Of a stretch of DNA of 64,000 nt, positions 7,332-22,712 are shown piece after piece. This stretch comes from Hyphococcus sp. (lineage in GTDB: Bacteria; Pseudomonadota; Alphaproteobacteria; Caulobacterales; Parvularculaceae). The notes beneath the pieces were generated by a model. That model searched no databases and was not told where the DNA came from. It saw nothing but the letters and a program-made list of their open reading frames with translations. Made by a program: the position numbers and the translations under genes. The stretch lies in assembly GCA_021776375.1 (NCBI GenBank), contig JAJFGA010000085.1, positions 1 to 64,000 of the forward strand, read 5' to 3'. How positions within the stretch are numbered: position 1 is the stretch's first letter; every line of letters begins with the position of its first letter.

Positions 7332-7991
7332 TTAGTGAATGCGGATCGACAGGCGCGCGCAGCCAATAATTGGTGTGGTCTCATCAGCGAAGATGGTGTC
7401 GTATCGGTCTTCGCTCGAGGCTGGTTCAAGCCGTGACGGTCCCTCGCGCCAGCGGCGCAAAATAGGATTGCCGGCAACGGATGCAAGGCAAAAGACGCCG
7501 TCATTGGGTCCGTGATCTGTGTAATCGATCACCACTAGCGTGCCGATCGGAAAGACCAGATTAACCGCATCGTCTTCCATAAATATGCCGAACATTTTTG
7601 GCGAGCCGGCGGTGACCGGAATATAATCTTCGGCCATGGTGTGCGGGTCTGCGGTCATATCAATTGCAAACAAGGCCGCCGAGCGAAAACTAATCACTGG
7701 CACATGTTGCACTGGCCGACGCAGATAAGCTGCGGCTGCATGCTTATCGCTTTCTCCGACAGAGCGGTCGCCAGCGGCGAGCCAGTCCAGCGGGGATTCC
7801 AGCGCCGCAGCGAGCTTTGCCAGCATCAGCCGACGCGGGTCATGCAATCCACTCTCCCAGTTGGCGATCGCCGGCTGGCTGACGCCCAGCCGCCGCGCAA
7901 GATCTGACTGACTTAAGCCGCGCGATTTTCTCGCCTGCCGGACCCGCTCGCCAATCGATCGGGCCCGTTCAATCTGTTCTGAGTCACTCAT
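7332..7991 (-). CDS. XRE-family regulator with S24/LexA-like C-terminal domain
   Basis: 219 aa. Residues about 10-66 form a helix-turn-helix of the lambda-repressor type (GLSQSDLARRLGVSQPAIANWE). The C-terminal half resembles the S24 (LexA/CI) fold, with GIFMEDDAVNLVFPIGTLVVID. Where self-cleaving members have a G-D-S-M motif, this protein has M-E-D-D, so the nucleophilic serine seems absent. It is therefore more likely a ligand- or dimerisation-controlled repressor than an autoprotease. A palindrome at 8004-8022, 12 bp upstream of its start codon, is a candidate autoregulatory operator. Confidence 0.85.
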   Translation of the reverse strand: MSDSEQIERARSIGERVRQARKSRGLSQSDLARRLGVSQPAIANWESGLHDPRRLMLAKLAAALESPLDWLAAGDRSVGESDKHAAAAYLRRPVQHVPVISFRSAALFAIDMTADPHTMAEDYIPVTAGSPKMFGIFMEDDAVNLVFPIGTLVVIDYTDHGPNDGVFCLASVAGNPILRRWREGPSRLEPASSEDRYDTIFADETTPIIGCARLSIRIH

Positions 7992-8003
7992 ATGCGTCCT
8001 CGA

Positions 8004-8022
8004 ATATAAGTTTAGCTTATAT
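8004..8022. promoter_or_regulatory. Inverted-repeat operator candidate for the XRE regulator
   Basis: ATATAAG-N5-CTTATAT is a perfect 7-bp inverted repeat 12 bp before the start of the XRE regulator. On the minus strand it contains TATAAG and TTATAT, which can serve as -10 elements, so binding would directly occlude the promoter. The divergent 66-aa gene begins 174 bp away and may be controlled too. Confidence 0.55.
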
Positions 8023-8195
8023 CATTTTTGAGTTTTGCGCGATAAAATTCTCAAATTCGCCCCACCGGGTTAAAGGCTATAGGAATTTCGGTAAACTAAG
8101 CGGTATAAAAAAATTTCGCAACGGTCTTGAAAAAATCAGATTTCCTTATATTCTTCACTCAGTAGCAGTAGTCCAATAAAACATCGGGGTCGTCT

Positions 8196-8396
8196 ATGGC
8201 TGACCAGTGTGATCGTGACGGCGCGAGCCGTCTTGCCACGAGAATCCAGGATTTCTGGCGCAAGCGTGGTTTTGATGTTGCCGTTGAAATGTCGGATGAG
8301 GGGTTCGTCTCCACCATGCGCTCAGCGCGCACGGATGTCCGCAGCGACATGATCAACGGAATGCCAACCCGTAACGCCAGCGCGGAAGCCGGCTAG
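8196..8396 (+). CDS. Conserved small protein, 66 aa
   Basis: Short soluble protein with two parts. A helical N-terminus (ASRLATRIQDFWRKRGFDVAVEM) resembles small alphaproteobacterial proteins containing RI-x3-W-x3-G-F/Y-D-V. The C-terminus VRSDMINGMP is a motif I recall from uncharacterised alphaproteobacterial proteins. No function is known to me. The stop codon overlaps the end of gph, which is read from the other strand, by 4 bp. Its promoter should lie in the AT-rich stretch 8095-8165. Confidence 0.65.
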   Translation: MADQCDRDGASRLATRIQDFWRKRGFDVAVEMSDEGFVSTMRSARTDVRSDMINGMPTRNASAEAG

Positions 8397-9070
8397 CGCG
8401 CCAGCAATTTTTCAATCATCGCCTCAGCCTCGACATAGGCCGTAAACGCCGCCGCCGCCTGATCACGCAATGTCAGCGGCCCATAGCCGAACTCAGCAAT
8501 CAGACACGGCAATCCGGCAGCACCCGCCGCCTTGATATCGGTGTCGCTGTCGCCAATAAAAACAGATCGCCCGGCGCCTGTCCGCTCAATGCATAAAAAT
8601 ACCGGCGCAGGGTCAGGCTTGGCCGCTTCGCACGTATCCGCGCCGACAATCGTATCGAACAGGCCGCCAATGCCGAGCGTGTCGATCAGAAGGTGCGACA
8701 TCGCCTCACGTTTGTTGGTGCAGATTGCGATCCCGGCGCCGCGGCGGCGAAATCCCTCAATCATCTCGATGACGCCGTCAAATGGCCGTGAATGGACGGC
8801 GATATTTGCGGCATAATGATCGAGGAAGTGTTTCAGGCCCTGTTCAAGCTCGCTATCGCTGGCCGCCCGTCCGGCGCCAGCCTCTATGCCGCGCATCAAC
8901 ATCGCGCGCGCGCCATGGCCGACAAGGTGACGGACATCGCTATGCGCCACCGATGGCAGACCCGCCTCGCCAAGAGCATGGTTCATCGACGCAGCAAGGT
9001 CGTCCGCGGTGTCAATCAGCGTGCCGTCAAGGTCGAATATGACCGCCGCACCCTTTAAATCCTGCCTCAT
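8393..9070 (-). CDS. gph: Phosphoglycolate phosphatase (HAD superfamily)
   Basis: 225 aa, the usual length. HAD motif I is FDLDGTLIDT near residues 12-21, with the nucleophile and acid-base aspartates. Motif II is CTNKRE, the conserved lysine is in AAKPDP, and motif IV is FIGDSDTDIKAA. The sequence and the cap domain between motifs I and II fit Gph, which removes phosphate from 2-phosphoglycolate formed during repair of oxidised DNA ends or by oxygenase side reactions. Other HAD phosphatases are hard to exclude by sequence alone. It is divergent from glmU with 94 bp between the starts. Confidence 0.85.
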   Translation of the reverse strand: MRQDLKGAAVIFDLDGTLIDTADDLAASMNHALGEAGLPSVAHSDVRHLVGHGARAMLMRGIEAGAGRAASDSELEQGLKHFLDHYAANIAVHSRPFDGVIEMIEGFRRRGAGIAICTNKREAMSHLLIDTLGIGGLFDTIVGADTCEAAKPDPAPVFLCIERTGAGRSVFIGDSDTDIKAAGAAGLPCLIAEFGYGPLTLRDQAAAAFTAYVEAEAMIEKLLAR

Positions 9071-15179: not shown

Positions 15180-15689
15180 TTAGCGACATTCGCGCGCGAC
15201 GCGGTCAAGAGCGGCGGAAATGCCGCGCAGCGACATCACATAATTGGTCGCGGTGCCGCGCTGGGAGACGGCGCTGACCCGCATATCCGCGCCGCGGCGC
15301 ATCGCCCGCACCAGCCGGCTTTCCTCGTCAGAGGATTCAATGAACGCCTCGTTTTCGGACGCATACATTTTCCATTTGTCCGAGCCGACCCGCAATGTCG
15401 GTTCCGGCTTGGTGTTGAGCGCATAGCCGGTCATCAGGCTCGGCTGCGCGGTTGCAGCGCCGGATTTCCAGCTCGCCACAAGAAAGAAGACATCGCCGTG
15501 ATTGACCGATTTGGGCGATTTGTCTTTGGCCTCGGTTGCGGCAAAGCAGATTTTGTCGCCGCCGGCGTCGCGCACGAAGACGCTCCAGTCCTTATAGGTC
15601 GCCACCGCCTTGGGCTCGGCGGCCAGCGCGCTGAACGCGGCAATGCTAGTGATAGCGGCAAGGACGGTGAGAATAATCGGACGAGCCAT
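15180..15689 (-). CDS. Invasion-associated locus B (IalB) family protein
   Basis: 169 aa with an N-terminal signal peptide (hydrophobic to about residue 23, ending ALA-AEP), so periplasmic. The mature part has YKDWSVFV, KICFAATEAKDK, VFFLVASWKSG and a terminal Cys near the end, the layout of IalB proteins. These are widespread in alphaproteobacteria and were first described in Bartonella, where they relate to erythrocyte invasion; the role in free-living species is unclear. GAAGGAG precedes the ATG. A tandem 15-bp repeat lies in its leader or promoter. Confidence 0.85.
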   Translation of the reverse strand: MARPIILTVLAAITSIAAFSALAAEPKAVATYKDWSVFVRDAGGDKICFAATEAKDKSPKSVNHGDVFFLVASWKSGAATAQPSLMTGYALNTKPEPTLRVGSDKWKMYASENEAFIESSDEESRLVRAMRRGADMRVSAVSQRGTATNYVMSLRGISAALDRVARECR

Positions 15690-15892: not shown

Positions 15893-18568
15893 ATGATACC
15901 CGGACGCGATTCGCTGAAAACCAAAAAAACCCTCACCGCAGCCGGCAAAGACTATGCCTATTATAGCCTCGCCGAGGCGAGCGCCCAAATTGGCGATATT
16001 TCGCGCCTGCCGTTTTCGCTCAAGGTCCTGCTCGAAAACCTGCTGAGATTTGAAGACGATCGCTCAGTCACGGTCGATGACATCAAAGCTTTCGCCGAAT
16101 GGGCGAAGGCCGGCAAGTCGACCCGCGAAATCGCCTACCGCCCGGCCCGGGTGTTGATGCAGGATTTCACCGGCGTTCCCGCGGTCGTCGATCTCGCGGC
16201 GATGCGCGATGCGATGAAGTCCCTCGGCGAAGACCCGGAAAAGATCAATCCCCTGGCGCCGGTCGATCTCGTGATCGATCACTCGGTGATGGTCGATTAT
16301 TTCGGCGGGCCGGATGCGTTCAAGAAAAACGTCGAGCGCGAATATGAACGCAATGGCGAACGCTACAAATTTCTGAAATGGGGCCAGGGCGCGTTCGATA
16401 ATTTCCGCGTCGTCCCGCCAGGCACCGGCATCTGCCACCAGGTCAATCTGGAATATCTCGCGCAGGCTGTCTGGACCGCCGACCACAAAGGCGAGACTTA
16501 CGCCTATCCCGACACGCTTGTGGGCACGGACAGTCACACCACGATGGTCAATGGGTTATCCGTCCTCGGATGGGGCGTCGGCGGCATTGAAGCGGAAGCG
16601 GCGATGCTCGGCCAGCCGATTTCCATGCTGATCCCGGAAGTCATCGGCTTTAAGCTGACGGAACGCCTTCCCGAAGGCGCGACCGCAACCGACCTTGTGC
16701 TGACGATTGTCGAGATGCTGCGCAAGAAAGGCGTTGTCGGCAAGTTTGTAGAATTTTATGGCGCCGGCCTCGATCACCTGTCGCTCGAAGACCAGGCGAC
16801 CATCGCCAATATGGCGCCGGAATATGGTGCGACCTGCGGCTTCTTCCCCGTAGATGACGAAACTCTGCGCTATTTGAAAGCAACCGGCCGATCAGAAGAC
16901 CGCATCGCGCTTGTCGAAGCCTACGCCAAAGAACAAGGCATGTGGCGCGAGAAGGGAACGCCCGACCCGGTCTTCACCGACACGCTGGAACTCGATCTTT
17001 CCAGTGTCGTTCCGTCCCTCGCCGGACCAAAACGCCCGCAGGATCGCGTGCTTCTTTCCGAGGCGCCGCAAGGCTTCGCCGCCGCGCTCGACAAGGAATA
17101 TGGCAAGGCGGCGGAAGCCGGAAAACGCGTACCCGTCAAAGGCGAAGATTTCGATCTCGGCCATGGTGATATTGCGGTCGCCGCGATTACGTCATGCACA
17201 AATACATCAAACCCATCGGTTTTGATCGCCGCGGGCCTCGTTGCGCGCAATGCCCACGCGAAAGGCCTCACCGTCAAACCTTGGGTCAAGACATCGCTGG
17301 CGCCGGGAAGCCAGGTCGTGACCGATTATCTCGACGCGGCCGGTCTCACCGACGATCTCGATGCGCTCGGGTTTAACCTCGTTGGTTATGGCTGCACAAC
17401 ATGCATCGGCAATACCGGGCCGCTGCCCGAGCCGATTTCGAACGCCGTCAATCAAAATGATCTTGCCGTCGCCTCTGTCCTTTCCGGCAACAGAAACTTT
17501 GAGGGCAGGATATCGGCCGATGTGCGCGCAAACTATCTCGCCTCGCCGCCGCTTGTGGTCGCCTATGCGATTGCGGGCTCAATGAACGTCAATCTGACCA
17601 CGGACGCGCTCGGCAAGGACGCCGACGGGAACGACGTGTTCCTGAAAGACATCTGGCCGTCCAATCAGGAAATCGCCGAAGTCGTACGCGAGCATGTAAC
17701 CGCGAAAATGTTCGCAACGCGCTATGCTGACGTTTTCAAAGGCGACGACAAATGGCGCGCGATCGATGTCAGCGATGACGAGACCTATCAATGGCCGTCT
17801 TCGACATATGTGGCCAAGCCGCCCTTCTTTGAGGGCATGAAGAAAGAGCCGGAAGCGGTGAAGCCGATTGATGGTGCGCGCGTTTTGGCGATGTTCGGCG
17901 AATCGATCACCACGGACCACATCTCGCCCGCCGGCGCCATTAAAGAAGACGGGCCCGCCGGGGAATATCTCAAAGCCCATCAGGTGCCGGTTCATGAATT
18001 CAACTCTTTCGGCTCTCGGCGCGGCAATCACGATGTGATGATGCGCGGCACTTTCGCCAATATCCGCATCAAGAACCAGATGCTGCCGGGCACGGAAGGC
18101 GGCGTTACGAAATATGTGCCGACCGGCGAAGAAATGCCGATCTATGACGCGGCGATGAAATATAAAGAAGCGGGCACGCCGCTCGTGGTCGTCGCCGGCG
18201 AACAATACGGCACCGGCTCGTCGCGGGACTGGGCGGCGAAAGGCACGATCCTCCTCGGCGTGCGTGCGGTCATCGCGAAAAGCTTCGAACGCATTCACCG
18301 CTCGAACCTCATTGGCATGGGCGTTCTTCCCTTACAATTTACAGGCGGCGAGGGATGGGACGCGCTCAGCATGACCGGCGATGAAGAAGTTACCATTCAA
18401 GACATCGAAGACATCAGCCCGCGCCAGACCATCAAAGCGTCAATTAAATTCGCCAATGGCGAGACGAAAGAGATCGACGTTCTCGTGCGCATCGACACCG
18501 CCGACGAGCTCGATTATTTCCGCCATGGTGGAATTCTGCATTACGTCATCAGAAAACTAGCGGCGTAA
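15893..18568 (+). CDS. acnA: Aconitate hydratase A
   Basis: 891 aa, typical for AcnA/IRP-type aconitases. 4Fe-4S ligands are visible in [13 protein letters not shown] and [24 protein letters not shown] and the C-terminal swivel segment with [14 protein letters not shown] are diagnostic. It interconverts citrate and isocitrate in the TCA and glyoxylate cycles. GGAGG lies directly upstream of the ATG. It is transcribed divergently from the IalB gene across a 203-bp region. Confidence 0.97.
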
Positions 18569-18685: not shown

Positions 18686-19504
18686 TTGCGAGCTGGGGCG
18701 TTCGAGATTTTTCGTCTGATAAATATTTTCATCTGGTGCATCGTGTTTGCCGCCAGTAGCGCAGCTTCTGCTTCGCCCTGGGCGCGTGCTAACAATGAGC
18801 TGATCATCATAAGCCGTGCTGACTACTTCAAAGCCGATCTCGGCCCCGTCAACACCATCAACGGAATTGTCGACAGTCATTTTGAACGGCTTATATCAAA
18901 CACTTATGTCGAATACGGATTAACCGACACTATAACCCTCGGCGGCAAGGCGCTTTACGGTACGAGCTGGTTGACCCGCGGCGGTGCAACGGAGACAGCG
19001 TCAGGGTTTTCTGAGGTCGAAGCCTATGTTCAGCATCAGGTGTTTCGATCCCCCATTCATGCCGGCGCGGTCCGCCTAGCTGTTGCAAGGCCTGCAAATT
19101 TCGCATCCGGCGCCCGCCCGGAACTGCAAAGCAACGGCATCGATATGGATGTCTCCGCACTATACGGACGAAATATTATAAATACGCCGGTGAAGGTTTT
19201 TACTGCAACGGAGGTCGGGTATAGGAAAAGGATTAGCGATTCTGCCGATCATATCCGAGTAGACGCTACAATTGGCTTGGAGCCGAGTGAAAACTTTCTG
19301 TTTCTATTCGATTTTTTCTCAACAATCTCAATGCAAAACGAAAGCGTAGGCGGCGCCGATTTCGACATTGTGAAAATCCAACCCTCGCTGCTCTGGCGTA
19401 TAAGGCCGATGTGGGCGTTTCAGGTTGGGATGACCGAAGAAATTTCGGGTCGAAACATTTCAACCGGCCGCACCTATTTTTTCGGCCTGTGGTCGCGCTT
19501 TTAG
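18686..19504 (+). CDS. Outer-membrane beta-barrel-like protein
   Basis: 272 aa. A hydrophobic N-terminus (LINIFIWCIVFAASSAASAS) looks like a signal peptide. The rest alternates short beta strands such as TYVEYGLTDTITLGGKALYG, VKVFTATEVGYRKRI and FQVGMTEEISGRN, and ends in the aromatic FFGLWSRF, a typical C-terminal barrel strand. The TTG start at 18686 is the only upstream candidate and lacks a good Shine-Dalgarno, so the start is uncertain. Its stop is directly followed by the ATG of the glycosyltransferase, suggesting a translationally coupled pair for glycan export or anchoring. Confidence 0.65.
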   Translation: MRAGAFEIFRLINIFIWCIVFAASSAASASPWARANNELIIISRADYFKADLGPVNTINGIVDSHFERLISNTYVEYGLTDTITLGGKALYGTSWLTRGGATETASGFSEVEAYVQHQVFRSPIHAGAVRLAVARPANFASGARPELQSNGIDMDVSALYGRNIINTPVKVFTATEVGYRKRISDSADHIRVDATIGLEPSENFLFLFDFFSTISMQNESVGGADFDIVKIQPSLLWRIRPMWAFQVGMTEEISGRNISTGRTYFFGLWSRF

Positions 19505-21223
19505 ATGTTCGATGGTGCGCCGAAATTTGATACGAAAAAACAACCGGGTACAGAGGTTCCACCTCCCGATGTCGATCTGCAAAGATTTTCCGACCTTCGC
19601 CGCTATGTGAAGTCAGGTAAAATTCCGTGGCGGAAAATCTCTTCCTGGAAGCGTGAAAATCTGTGCAACCAGGATATCGTGACCCGCGAAGAGGTGGGTT
19701 ATCGCAACGGCATACCATTCCCGCTACGCGCGCATCGCTTTGCGCCGAGGAAAGTCTTTCAGGACAATCTTCGTGAACGCTTCGCTGACGAAATTGCCAC
19801 CGCATCGGTTCGCGACCTGCGAGATCAGCACCCCGACAGATCCGCCGCCGGGGTTTTGAATTTAGCGCAGAAAGTTCTCTTTGTTATATCAGGACTATTG
19901 GCTGTCATTGCATTTATCAACTATCCGATGACGACCATTATTACAGCCAACGCTGCCGTCACAGCTTATTTTCTGCTTGCCATCGCCTACAGAATTGCCC
20001 TTGTTTTTACGCCCACAGCGCCCTTTAAAACAAAGGGCCAAACCCTCGCCATCGACGATGATCGGCTTCCAACGATCACGATATTACTGCCGCTTTACCA
20101 CGATGCCGATGCTATCGTTACGCTCAGTCAGGCGATTGACCGGCTGCAATACCAAACTGAAAAGAAGGATGTAAAACTTCTTGTTGAAGAAGACGACCAT
20201 GCAACCATCAACGAGGCGCGCCGTCTTGGGTTGGATGAGCGCTATGAATTAATAACCGTTGCCGACATCGGCCCACGCACCAAGCCCAAGGCGTGCAACT
20301 ACGGCATGCACCTCGCACGTGGCGAGCTGATCGTGATCTTCGATGCCGAAGATCAACCCGAGCCCGACCAATTGCTCAAAGCGGCAAGCGCTTTTGAGTG
20401 TGGCGACCACCAACTTGCCTGCGTTCAAGCGCGGTTAAATTACTATAACGCAAATGAAAACTGGCTGACGCGGCTGTTTACGCTGGAATATTCTTTGTGG
20501 TTTGACTGGTTGCTGCCAGCACTGCAAGCGCAGGGCGCGCCTATTCCGCTTGGCGGCACGTCCAATTATTTTAAGACTGATACGCTGGTAAAAATTGGCG
20601 GATGGGACCCGTTTAACGTTACCGAGGACGCCGATCTTGGTTTGCGATTGTCAAAGCTCGGCTACCGCGTCGAGATTTTGGATTCAACTACCTATGAAGA
20701 GGCAAACTGCCGGACCGGAAACTGGATCCGCCAGCGTTCGCGTTGGATGAAGGGTTATCTGCAGACCTGGCTTGTCCATATGCGCCGTCCCGGAGATATC
20801 GTCGCAACCACGGGGTGGTCTGGTCTGTTGTCCATTCAGTTGTTCACCGCGGGAAATGTCTTCAGTGCACTTATCAACCCGGTCTTGTGGGCGGTGTTCA
20901 TTGGCTGGTTGTTGACGGCCTCGCCACTGATCTCCGAAGCGTTTCCCGGACCGCTGTTATGGTTCAATATTTTCGCTCTGGTATTCGGCAACCTATTCTT
21001 TATTTTTCTCGCCGTCATCGCACCCTTAAAACGCGGCTGGGGGCATTTATGCGTCTTCGGATTGACCGCCCCGGTCTACTGGCTCCTGGCGTCCATCGCC
21101 GCCTATAAGGCGCTTTGGCAAATCATATTCAAGCCGCACTATTGGGAAAAAACCGATCACCTCATCAGCGCTGTCGCCATTCAAAAACGCAAAGATGCGC
21201 TGCGGGACAGAAGCAAAAAATAA
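19505..21223 (+). CDS. Cellulose-synthase-like membrane glycosyltransferase (GT2)
   Basis: 572 aa. Two N-terminal membrane helices (about 122-140 and 147-168) precede the GT2 catalytic domain: EEDD (228-231), DAED (280-283), TED (373-375, catalytic base) and QRSRW (410-414, the processive-synthase QxxRW motif). At least three further membrane helices follow. A cytosolic N-terminal extension of about 115 residues is unusual. This makes it a processive polysaccharide synthase using a nucleotide sugar; product unknown. No bcsB or PilZ partner is nearby. The ATG directly abuts the stop of the barrel-like gene. Confidence 0.85.
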   Translation: MFDGAPKFDTKKQPGTEVPPPDVDLQRFSDLRRYVKSGKIPWRKISSWKRENLCNQDIVTREEVGYRNGIPFPLRAHRFAPRKVFQDNLRERFADEIATASVRDLRDQHPDRSAAGVLNLAQKVLFVISGLLAVIAFINYPMTTIITANAAVTAYFLLAIAYRIALVFTPTAPFKTKGQTLAIDDDRLPTITILLPLYHDADAIVTLSQAIDRLQYQTEKKDVKLLVEEDDHATINEARRLGLDERYELITVADIGPRTKPKACNYGMHLARGELIVIFDAEDQPEPDQLLKAASAFECGDHQLACVQARLNYYNANENWLTRLFTLEYSLWFDWLLPALQAQGAPIPLGGTSNYFKTDTLVKIGGWDPFNVTEDADLGLRLSKLGYRVEILDSTTYEEANCRTGNWIRQRSRWMKGYLQTWLVHMRRPGDIVATTGWSGLLSIQLFTAGNVFSALINPVLWAVFIGWLLTASPLISEAFPGPLLWFNIFALVFGNLFFIFLAVIAPLKRGWGHLCVFGLTAPVYWLLASIAAYKALWQIIFKPHYWEKTDHLISAVAIQKRKDALRDRSKK

Positions 21224-21279
21224 GGCTGGCCTACGCGCCGATTGACATTATATCGTATCTGTCAATCGAGATGAGAGAT

Positions 21280-22131
21280 ATGAGCGCACTGGCTGGCCAT
21301 CCCTATCGAAAAATGAACGGGCTCGGAAACGTGTTCGTTATTCTTGATCTGCGCCAGTCTGGCGCCGGTTTGGATGAGGAAAGCGCACGCCTGATCGCCG
21401 ACCCGAAATCCGGCCCCGGTTGCGATCAAGTCATTTCGCTGGAAAACCGCCGCGGCGTTGAAGGCGTCTTTATGGGCGTATGGAACGCCGACGGCTCTGA
21501 GGTGGGCGCATGCGGGAATGCAGCGCGATGCGTTAGTTCGCTGTTGATGGAGGAAACCGGCGCTAACGAAGCGTCGTTTTCGACGCTCGCCGGCGCTTTA
21601 ACTGCATCAAAAGTTGGCAATAACCGTATCGCCGTTGATATGGGTGAGCCGAAATTTCACTGGCGGGATATTCCGCTTTCTGAACAAATGGACGACACAA
21701 GATTTATCGATATTAAACTTGGCCCCATCGACAATCCGGTTTTGTGGGGCCCGTCAGCGGTCAATGTCGGCAACCCGCATTGCATCTTTTTTGTTGAAGA
21801 CGCAGAAGCCCAAGCGCTCGACCGGTTTGGACCGCTGATTGAAAACCACCCGCTGTTTCCCGAACGCGCCAATGTTTCCGTAGCGGAAGTGCGCAGCAAG
21901 CACCTCATCCGCCTGCGCGTCTGGGAGCGTGGCGTTGGTATTACCAAAGCCTGCGGCACCGCCGCCTGTGCGGTGGCCGTTGCCGCAAACCGCCGGCGTC
22001 TCACCGAACGCAAATCAACACTAATCCTTGATGGCGGCGAGCTGGCGATTGAATGGCGTGAAGATAACCACATCATAATGACTGGACCGATATCGGACGA
22101 TGGCGAGGGTGTTCTTGCGGACACTATATAA
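21280..22131 (+). CDS. dapF: Diaminopimelate epimerase
   Basis: 283 aa from the ATG at 21280; an in-frame ATG three codons earlier is also possible. The two catalytic cysteines are C78 in GACGNAARC and C225 in TKACGTAACA. YRKMNGLGNVFVILD at the N-terminus and VNVGNPHCIFFV are further family blocks. The first block reads GLGNVF where most members have GNDF. It converts LL- to meso-diaminopimelate for lysine and peptidoglycan. tdk begins 2 bp after the stop, so the two are likely co-translated. Confidence 0.95.
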   Translation: MSALAGHPYRKMNGLGNVFVILDLRQSGAGLDEESARLIADPKSGPGCDQVISLENRRGVEGVFMGVWNADGSEVGACGNAARCVSSLLMEETGANEASFSTLAGALTASKVGNNRIAVDMGEPKFHWRDIPLSEQMDDTRFIDIKLGPIDNPVLWGPSAVNVGNPHCIFFVEDAEAQALDRFGPLIENHPLFPERANVSVAEVRSKHLIRLRVWERGVGITKACGTAACAVAVAANRRRLTERKSTLILDGGELAIEWREDNHIIMTGPISDDGEGVLADTI

Positions 22132-22133
22132 TC

Positions 22134-22712
22134 ATGGCGAAACTTTATTTTAATTACGCTGCAATGAATGCAGGAAAATCGACATCGCTCTTGCAGGCGA
22201 GTTTCAATTATCGTGAACGCGGCATGCACACATTCGAGTTCACGGCGGAATTGGACGACCGCGACGAAAATGGTTCGATTTCGTCACGCATTGGCTTGAA
22301 GAAAGACGCTTATTGCTTTTCAAAGACTACCGATCTGCATGCGGTTGTCGCTGAGCATCATGCGAGTTGCAAAATAGATTGCGTTTTTCTCGACGAGGCG
22401 CAATTTTTGAACAACACCCAAGTTATGCAGCTCGCTTGCGTTGTTGATAAGCTCAACATCCCGGTCATCTGCTACGGCTTGCGAACCGACTTTCAGAGCG
22501 AATTGTTTGAGGGGAGCGCGCGGCTTCTGGCTATTGCCGATGAAATCCGCGAGCTAAAAACGATTTGTCACTGCGGCGGCAAAGCCATAATGAATTTACG
22601 TATTGACGCGCAGGGAACAGCGGTCACGCGTGGTGAAACAGTAGAGATTGGCGGCAATGATCGCTACACCGCGCTTTGCCGAAAACATTATTTCGAAGCC
22701 TTCGATGCCTGA
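22134..22712 (+). CDS. tdk: Thymidine kinase
   Basis: 192 aa, type II (bacterial) thymidine kinase. Walker A MNAGKST (11-17), Walker B FLDEAQF, and a zinc site formed by CHCGG plus the late CRKH pair. The lasso segment contains RGETVEIGGNDRYTALC. It phosphorylates thymidine for salvage. The 2-bp spacing to dapF suggests one operon. It converges with ppc; a weak 6-bp hairpin (TAGGGC/GCCCTA) lies in the 26-bp gap. Confidence 0.95.
   Translation: MAKLYFNYAAMNAGKSTSLLQASFNYRERGMHTFEFTAELDDRDENGSISSRIGLKKDAYCFSKTTDLHAVVAEHHASCKIDCVFLDEAQFLNNTQVMQLACVVDKLNIPVICYGLRTDFQSELFEGSARLLAIADEIRELKTICHCGGKAIMNLRIDAQGTAVTRGETVEIGGNDRYTALCRKHYFEAFDA

Follow-up and report, generated by a model that had tools for sequence, protein, structure and literature searches.

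What can an outer-membrane barrel protein and a cellulose-synthase-like enzyme do together when their genes stand alone among housekeeping genes? This question is raised by the 64,000-nucleotide stretch of Hyphococcus sp. DNA analyzed here (the window, which lies in contig C84 of a 3.1 Mb draft genome that is 84% complete), in which the interval between the aconitase gene and dapF holds only two open reading frames (ORFs) on the + strand, a barrel gene and then a gene for a membrane glycosyltransferase of family 2 (GT2):

18686..19504, + strand: predicted XagA-like 12-stranded outer-membrane barrel protein, 272 residues, with a TTG start, a signal peptide and a C-terminal Phe (structure model and homologue alignment)
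19505..21223, + strand: XagB-like membrane GT2 with a predicted cellulose-synthase-like fold, 572 residues, with an ATG start (Pfam, invariant motifs and structure model)

The TAG stop of the barrel gene directly abuts the ATG of the GT2 gene with no gap, and the coordinates, the abutment, the two-gene content and the housekeeping flanks given by an earlier description of this locus (the sequence-only reading) were all confirmed. We consider it probable that the pair is a reduced form of the XagA/XagB-type synthase-exporter that has become uncoupled from direct control by cyclic di-GMP (c-di-GMP). Set beside Xanthomonas-type and related loci, the window pair lacks a BcsB-like periplasmic subunit, neighboring xagC and glycoside hydrolase family 113 (GH113) genes and the c-di-GMP-binding half of an MshEN sensor.

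The two genes are kept together across the family. In a sample of 36 family genomes (the window's own and G001-G035), the GT2 was matched at better than 1e-20 in all except G002, G016 and G021, and the barrel profile matched 33, missing G012, G016 and G021. Thus, both genes are present in 32 of the 36 genomes and are adjacent in 31 of those 32; G016 and G021 have neither, and G012 has no barrel and only broken pieces of a GT2 gene, at the ends of two contigs. The association gives a Fisher p of 5.6e-4 when the G012 remnant is scored as absent and 0.014 when it is scored as present, kinship among the genomes being ignored in both. Among the 31 adjacent cases, the GT2 gene is interrupted by an insertion in four, lies in two frames in G009 and is a contig-end fragment in G034; dapF follows in 30, after a gap of up to about 1.2 kb, and the G034 contig ends too early. 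The pair persists even where GT2s of the family have diverged to 46-91% identity over the matched part, and its conservation is therefore not due to chance. The closest named matches of the window GT2 come from Marinicaulis and from alphaproteobacterial metagenome-assembled genomes (MAGs), at 88-95% identity.

The pairing also extends beyond the family. When the window barrel alone was compared with the ORFs of the fetched loci by phmmer, it matched proteins from a Rhodoplanes MAG (locus L018, E 1.1e-12), Pseudoxanthomonas (L016, 1.5e-9) and a Chlamydiia MAG (L041, 3.5e-8), and more weakly from Xanthomonas maliensis (L017, 0.0011) and L057 (0.018). An iterated profile retained all five and added L136, its E-values being partly circular because those rows enter the profile. 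In L016, L017 and L041 the barrel gene directly precedes the GT2 gene, in L057 and L136 it directly follows it, and in L018 the two share a cluster, so that the pair is clustered, in differing gene orders, in two phyla, Pseudomonadota and Chlamydiota. Consistent with this, on a tree of 88 GT2s, of which 27 are barrel-linked, the barrel label needs 4 changes, against 23.3 for shuffled labels, with none of 500 shuffles reaching so low a number, a result to which near-copies contribute; second copies of the same gene, the near-copy G019, interrupted or frameshifted genes and the frame-split L018 and L050 were left off this tree. The window GT2 shares a branch side with L016 and L017 (SH-aLRT 99; 57 of the 88 rows, with the root set by midpoint only), and this side also includes actinobacterial, Chlamydiota, Chloroflexota, Planctomycetota and candidate phyla radiation (CPR) enzymes. 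At seven loci, mostly CPR (L028, L034, L035, L038, L040, L044 and L059), the same GT2 is part of much longer stop-to-stop frames (1,548-1,626 residues) that continue far beyond it at the C-terminal end.

The second protein resembles a cellulose synthase. It matches PF13632 (E 1.3e-24) and PF13641 (E 1.4e-20), and the following motifs were located in it:

20342..20353, + strand: DxxD sugar-nucleotide motif, D280-A-E-D283, invariant in 52 of 52 rows
20621..20629, + strand: TED motif, T373-E374-D375, with E and D invariant and T nearly so
20732..20746, + strand: Q-R-S-R-W motif of the QxxRW type, residues 410-414, with Q, R, R and W invariant

In all, D280, E282, D283, E374, D375, Q410, R411, R413 and W414 are invariant in the 52 rows of the alignment. 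The model built on these rows (predicted local distance difference test, pLDDT, 92.9; predicted template modeling score, pTM, 0.92) is closest to Escherichia coli BcsA (9b8v_E; Z 29.4, root-mean-square deviation 3.1 Å, 388 residues aligned), and further matches include hyaluronan synthases and Rhodobacter BcsA (4p00_A; Z 25.6). As we interpret the predicted helices, two membrane helices precede the catalytic domain and about two follow it, in addition to interface helices; these are fewer than in BcsA. The sequence-only reading had called the enzyme a processive GT2. Processivity is unproven, and we grade chain synthesis as likely only, because a mannosyltransferase scores within one Z unit of BcsA. 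The window GT2 falls short of the cut-off of both equivalogs compared: it scores 53.3 against TIGR03030 (BcsA; cut-off 699.1) and 44.2 bits against the poly-N-acetylglucosamine synthase PgaC/IcaA (cut-off 422.3).

The first protein is predicted with high confidence to be an outer-membrane barrel, as the sequence-only reading had supposed. It has no Pfam match above cut-off, no NCBIfam match and no convincing sequence match in the Protein Data Bank, and its N terminus, judged by eye, resembles a signal peptide ending ASA|SPWAR; the TTG start was assigned from the reading frame and this signal peptide alone, and no promoter-like site was found upstream of the ORF on the + strand. A model built on 34 rows (the window protein and 33 homologues from the fetched loci, Xanthomonas included) has 12 strands, from E39-57 to E262-271, with a mean pLDDT of 88.8 (at least 90 at 214 of 272 residues) and a pTM of 0.80, and it contains no tetratricopeptide repeat (TPR) or helical repeat part. 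Its top structural match is the amyloid exporter FapF (5o65_C; Z 23.3, 2.5 Å, 230 aligned), followed by a COG4313 channel (4rl8_A; Z 22.3, 2.8 Å, 229 aligned) and the oligosaccharide porins KdgM (4fqe; Z 21.4, 1.7 Å, 169 aligned) and NanC (2wjq; Z 20.8, 2.0 Å, 185 aligned). The predicted fold thus establishes a barrel and says nothing of its function.

The uncoupling from c-di-GMP is suggested by the N-terminal part of the GT2. The first predicted membrane helix of the enzyme spans residues 120-139, confirming that the N-terminal extension noted earlier is real:

19559..19828, + strand: part of the N-terminal extension (residues about 19-108), a remnant that looks like the C-lobe, or second half, of MshEN and has no c-di-GMP-binding first half (profile match and model)

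In L016 and L017, the 53-residue c-di-GMP motif NF053729 is above cut-off (residues 22-74 and 27-74, respectively) and is followed by PF05157, which also matches in L018 and is found in 7 of the 52 GT2 rows. The window GT2 matches neither model at E values up to 1. However, when its residues 19-115 (a profile of 9 rows) were aligned with the MshEN second half plus linker of 9 homologues, hhalign returned a probability of 94.9 and a score of 51.2; once the linker was cut out, a match of 30 columns (PD..L...L..Y....PWR) remained, with a score of 28.4 compared with at most 17.4 in 50 column shuffles (0 of 50 reach it). The model of the extension, three strands with helices, is in line with the MshEN C-lobe as described in PMC5013675, according to which c-di-GMP is bound mainly by the N-lobe. 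Because the profile match and the predicted strands fit the C-lobe while the N-lobe motif is unmatched, we infer that the c-di-GMP-binding sensor half is gone from the window GT2 and that a C-lobe-like remnant has been kept. Some members of the genus appear to lack even this remnant, as L071 and L076 have only 42 and 50 residues before the column of window residue 125. The GT2 fold search is uninformative on the extension, since the aligned rows for the most part cover residues 136-564. The window's own genome has six GGDEF matches and, at 84% completeness, no PF05157 match.

The other missing parts concern the partners. The claim of the sequence-only reading that bcs partners are missing is supported as far as BcsB and PilZ go: BcsB (PF03170, E 0.001) was found in 0 of the 36 family genomes, the window's own 84% complete genome included (and in 2 of 24 genomes sampled from other families of the order), and no PilZ match was found by Pfam on the window GT2. 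BcsB-like genes are present in the clusters of L016, L018 and L041; PF03170 detects those of L016 and L018, whereas the L041 gene was recognized by eye and served as a seed. In L017, no BcsB-like gene was found in the fetched stretch, which carries an xagC-like membrane gene and, downstream of the homologous pair at 7941-8900, a GH113 glycoside hydrolase gene that hints at a mannan-like ancestral polymer. No xagC-like multi-membrane-helix gene is present at the window locus; an xagC-like profile of four divergent rows, run without a positive control, gave no match in 60 genomes and was not counted as absence.

That the pairing is unprecedented, as the contrast with known synthase systems in the sequence-only reading would imply, is not supported, because the same two families already stand together in Xanthomonas-type loci and the published xag and Nfr systems likewise have few genes. 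xagABCD is described as a biofilm polysaccharide operon of Xanthomonas in PMC3609779, PMC3826837 and PMC3542200. L017 resembles the window in its adjacent homologous pair (GT2 at 44% identity; barrel E 0.0011 in the single-sequence search and kept by the iterated profile) and differs in having the multi-membrane-helix gene, GH113 and the GT2 N-terminal c-di-GMP motif, none of which is found in the window. The clusters of iron-oxidizing bacteria, compared here by description, share an XagB-like GT2; according to PMC4643136, they run bcsB-xagB-xagC-xagD, with xagA not found by the authors and a role in stalk polysaccharide proposed. The window shows the opposite, with a barrel gene present and BcsB missing. 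E. coli NfrBA-YbcH likewise combines, with few genes, an inner-membrane GT2 and an outer-membrane pore protein, YbcH being dispensable for phage N4 infection; according to PMC8669469, NfrB binds c-di-GMP through a C-terminal MshEN and NfrA has TPR repeats, whereas the window has a bare barrel and a GT2 without the binding motif, and Pfam matched neither a C-terminal MshEN on the window GT2 nor TPR on the barrel. Finally, the BcsA-BcsB-BcsC system shares its catalytic fold with the window GT2 but differs otherwise, the window enzyme being below the BcsA cut-off and without PilZ, BcsB having no match in the genome and the barrel being without TPR. Among the matches listed in the open-licence PubMed Central literature, no publication on an xag-like pair in Parvularculaceae was found.

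Several observations weigh against the reading of the pair as a reduced synthase-exporter, and we consider them together with the alternatives that they favor. The second-best structural match of the GT2 is the mannosyltransferase PcManGT of Pyrobaculum calidifontis (6yv7_B; Z 28.7, 3.8 Å), aligned over 335 of its 345 residues. PcManGT has a minimal cellulose-synthase-like fold and acts in N-glycan assembly; it shares its fold with the window GT2 and differs in being an archaeal mannosyltransferase. The GT2 could therefore be a non-processive enzyme that modifies lipids or the envelope, and the barrel could serve that pathway as a porin or an envelope factor, as the smaller number of membrane helices and the structural matches to KdgM and NanC would allow. 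We consider this unlikely, because the synthase set of QxxRW and D/ED motifs is invariant in all 52 rows, BcsA scores at least as high and mutants of what appear to be the Xanthomonas counterparts have a biofilm effect. According to PMC3609779, removing either xagA or xagB from an rpfG mutant of Xanthomonas oryzae pv. oryzicola lowers that mutant's raised biofilm. In a wild-type background, by the same account, loss of either gene alone leaves biofilm, total extracellular polysaccharide and virulence unaltered. Moreover, L016 and L017 were called xag by genus and gene order alone, and the match of the extension to MshEN without the linker amounts to an hhalign probability of 55% over 30 columns.

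The barrel has its own exceptions. A predicted 12-stranded barrel also fits a small-solute porin such as KdgM or NanC, or a protein exporter such as FapF. G002 has lost the GT2 but still carries the barrel gene, flanked by aconitase and dapF. G035 has both genes, but they are not linked, and its barrel gene adjoins a different GT2 gene; at this locus (L138), the barrel homologue stands directly before the other GT2, which is 27% identical to the window GT2, and another long ORF follows, so that the barrel family has an alternative partner here. In other families of the order, where related GT2s are 34-44% identical, none of 22 fetched loci has a barrel within roughly 10 kb of the GT2, and barrel relatives are found elsewhere in 18 of the 24 genomes, several of them weak (some only 1e-4). 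Of these stand-alone relatives (L139-L148), several lie beside NAD kinase-like and DUF2336-like genes, as judged by eye. Thus, although the two families do occur together and the first protein is predicted to be a barrel, so that neither of the outcomes that the sequence-only reading had named against itself was seen, a barrel without a GT2 and GT2s without an adjacent barrel both exist. The G002 and G035 arrangements, the stand-alone relatives and FapF as the best structural match would suit an independent outer-membrane protein, a FapF-like exporter or a small porin, that is merely co-transcribed with the GT2. We regard this as distinctly improbable, given that the genes adjoin in all but one of the 32 family genomes that have both, the clustering in differing gene orders in two phyla and the three genomes in which both genes are missing or decaying together.

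The GT2 gene is also a repeated site of insertion. The site is uninterrupted in the window:

20465..20472, + strand: CTGACGCG (codons 321-323), where the homologues of seven other genomes contain an IS1595-family element

At this identical codon, insertions split the GT2 gene of four members of the same genus (G007, G010, G011 and G022) and of three genomes from another family (G198, G063 and G471), at loci L091, L092, L093/L087, L094/L088, L057, L102/L136 and L213. The inserted elements share the terminus CGGTATTATGGCGCAA, and where both ends were seen (G007, G010, G011, G022 and G198), they are flanked by the 8-base target duplications CTGACGCG, CTGACACG and CTTACCCG, the right end of the G022 element having one mismatch. 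In G063 and G471, the right flank alone was matched to the GT2, and a nearby left end in G471 has another flank. The G022 transposase belongs to the IS1595 family (PF12762, E 1.6e-34), and the cargo of the elements includes a 144-residue ORF, DUF6471 and others, not every part being seen in each copy. On the genus tree, the four split genes call for a minimum of three changes of state, which may all be gains or may include losses, and no stop was found inside their halves. A single old insertion behind them is disfavored, as they fall at three or more places on the tree on branches that are not unusually long, and the G022 and G007 transposases are 90% identical even though neither GT2 is among the five nearest of the other. 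Searches for the exact terminus in 60, 385 and 96 partly overlapping genomes gave matches in 5, 5 and 13. Because the same terminus also occurs at many places outside the GT2 gene, the GT2 codon is a hot spot but not the only target. The idea that an IS1595 subfamily targets this gene exclusively was rejected, as the 16-base terminus lies at many other places in the second family and one copy lies in a comM/yifB-like gene. In that copy (L097 of G044; gene named by eye), an element with the same termini is flanked by the 8-base duplication GAGTTCCC. At L200, L204 and L210, some element ends lie in flanks resembling the 3' ends of tRNA genes (putative). Repeated, codon-exact insertion of these elements into the synthase gene might conceivably switch the glycan on and off. 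That the pair is instead decaying, with xag parts being lost in the lineage and the remaining genes on their way out, is very improbable: the missing BcsB and first MshEN half, an xagC not found (by the profile without a positive control), the GT2 remnant in G012, its absence from G016 and G021, its two frames in G009 (possibly an assembly error) and the elements in four genomes of the genus would fit it, but both window genes are open, the GT2 is 88-91% identical to its nearest full-length copies, and synonymous far exceeds non-synonymous divergence between intact copies where estimable, many synonymous values being saturated.

The genes around the pair are context and lie outside the system:

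15893..18568, + strand: aconitase, upstream neighbor (Pfam and synteny)
about 21277..22131, + strand: dapF, downstream neighbor (Pfam and synteny)

A thymidine kinase gene follows dapF at 22134-22712. On the - strand, between malate synthase and aconitase, an IalB-like gene (PF06776) lies at 15180-15689 of the window, and ORFs similar to it by eye are present in L096, L137 and L150.

Returning to the reading of the pair as a reduced XagA/XagB-type synthase-exporter, we propose that the XagB-like GT2 would use a sugar nucleotide in the cytoplasm and move the growing chain across the inner membrane and that the XagA-like barrel would pass the chain through the outer membrane or hold it there. 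The enzyme would be controlled by expression or substrate and not directly by c-di-GMP, because the c-di-GMP-binding half of the MshEN sensor appears to be missing. A stronger version, in which the GT2 and a bare 12-stranded barrel suffice as a complete two-protein system for glycan synthesis and export, with no BcsB-like or TPR part and after loss of the sensor half, is possible but doubtful. Overall, a gene pair that had no name and is conserved in one family of Alphaproteobacteria is now linked to xag-type biofilm loci, and the XagA-like protein is given a predicted 12-strand barrel. The family and its relatives offer a natural experiment, in which members of one enzyme family differ in whether BcsB accompanies them and in whether they carry a c-di-GMP sensor, and, if the two-gene form works, it would define the minimum for pushing a glycan across two membranes.

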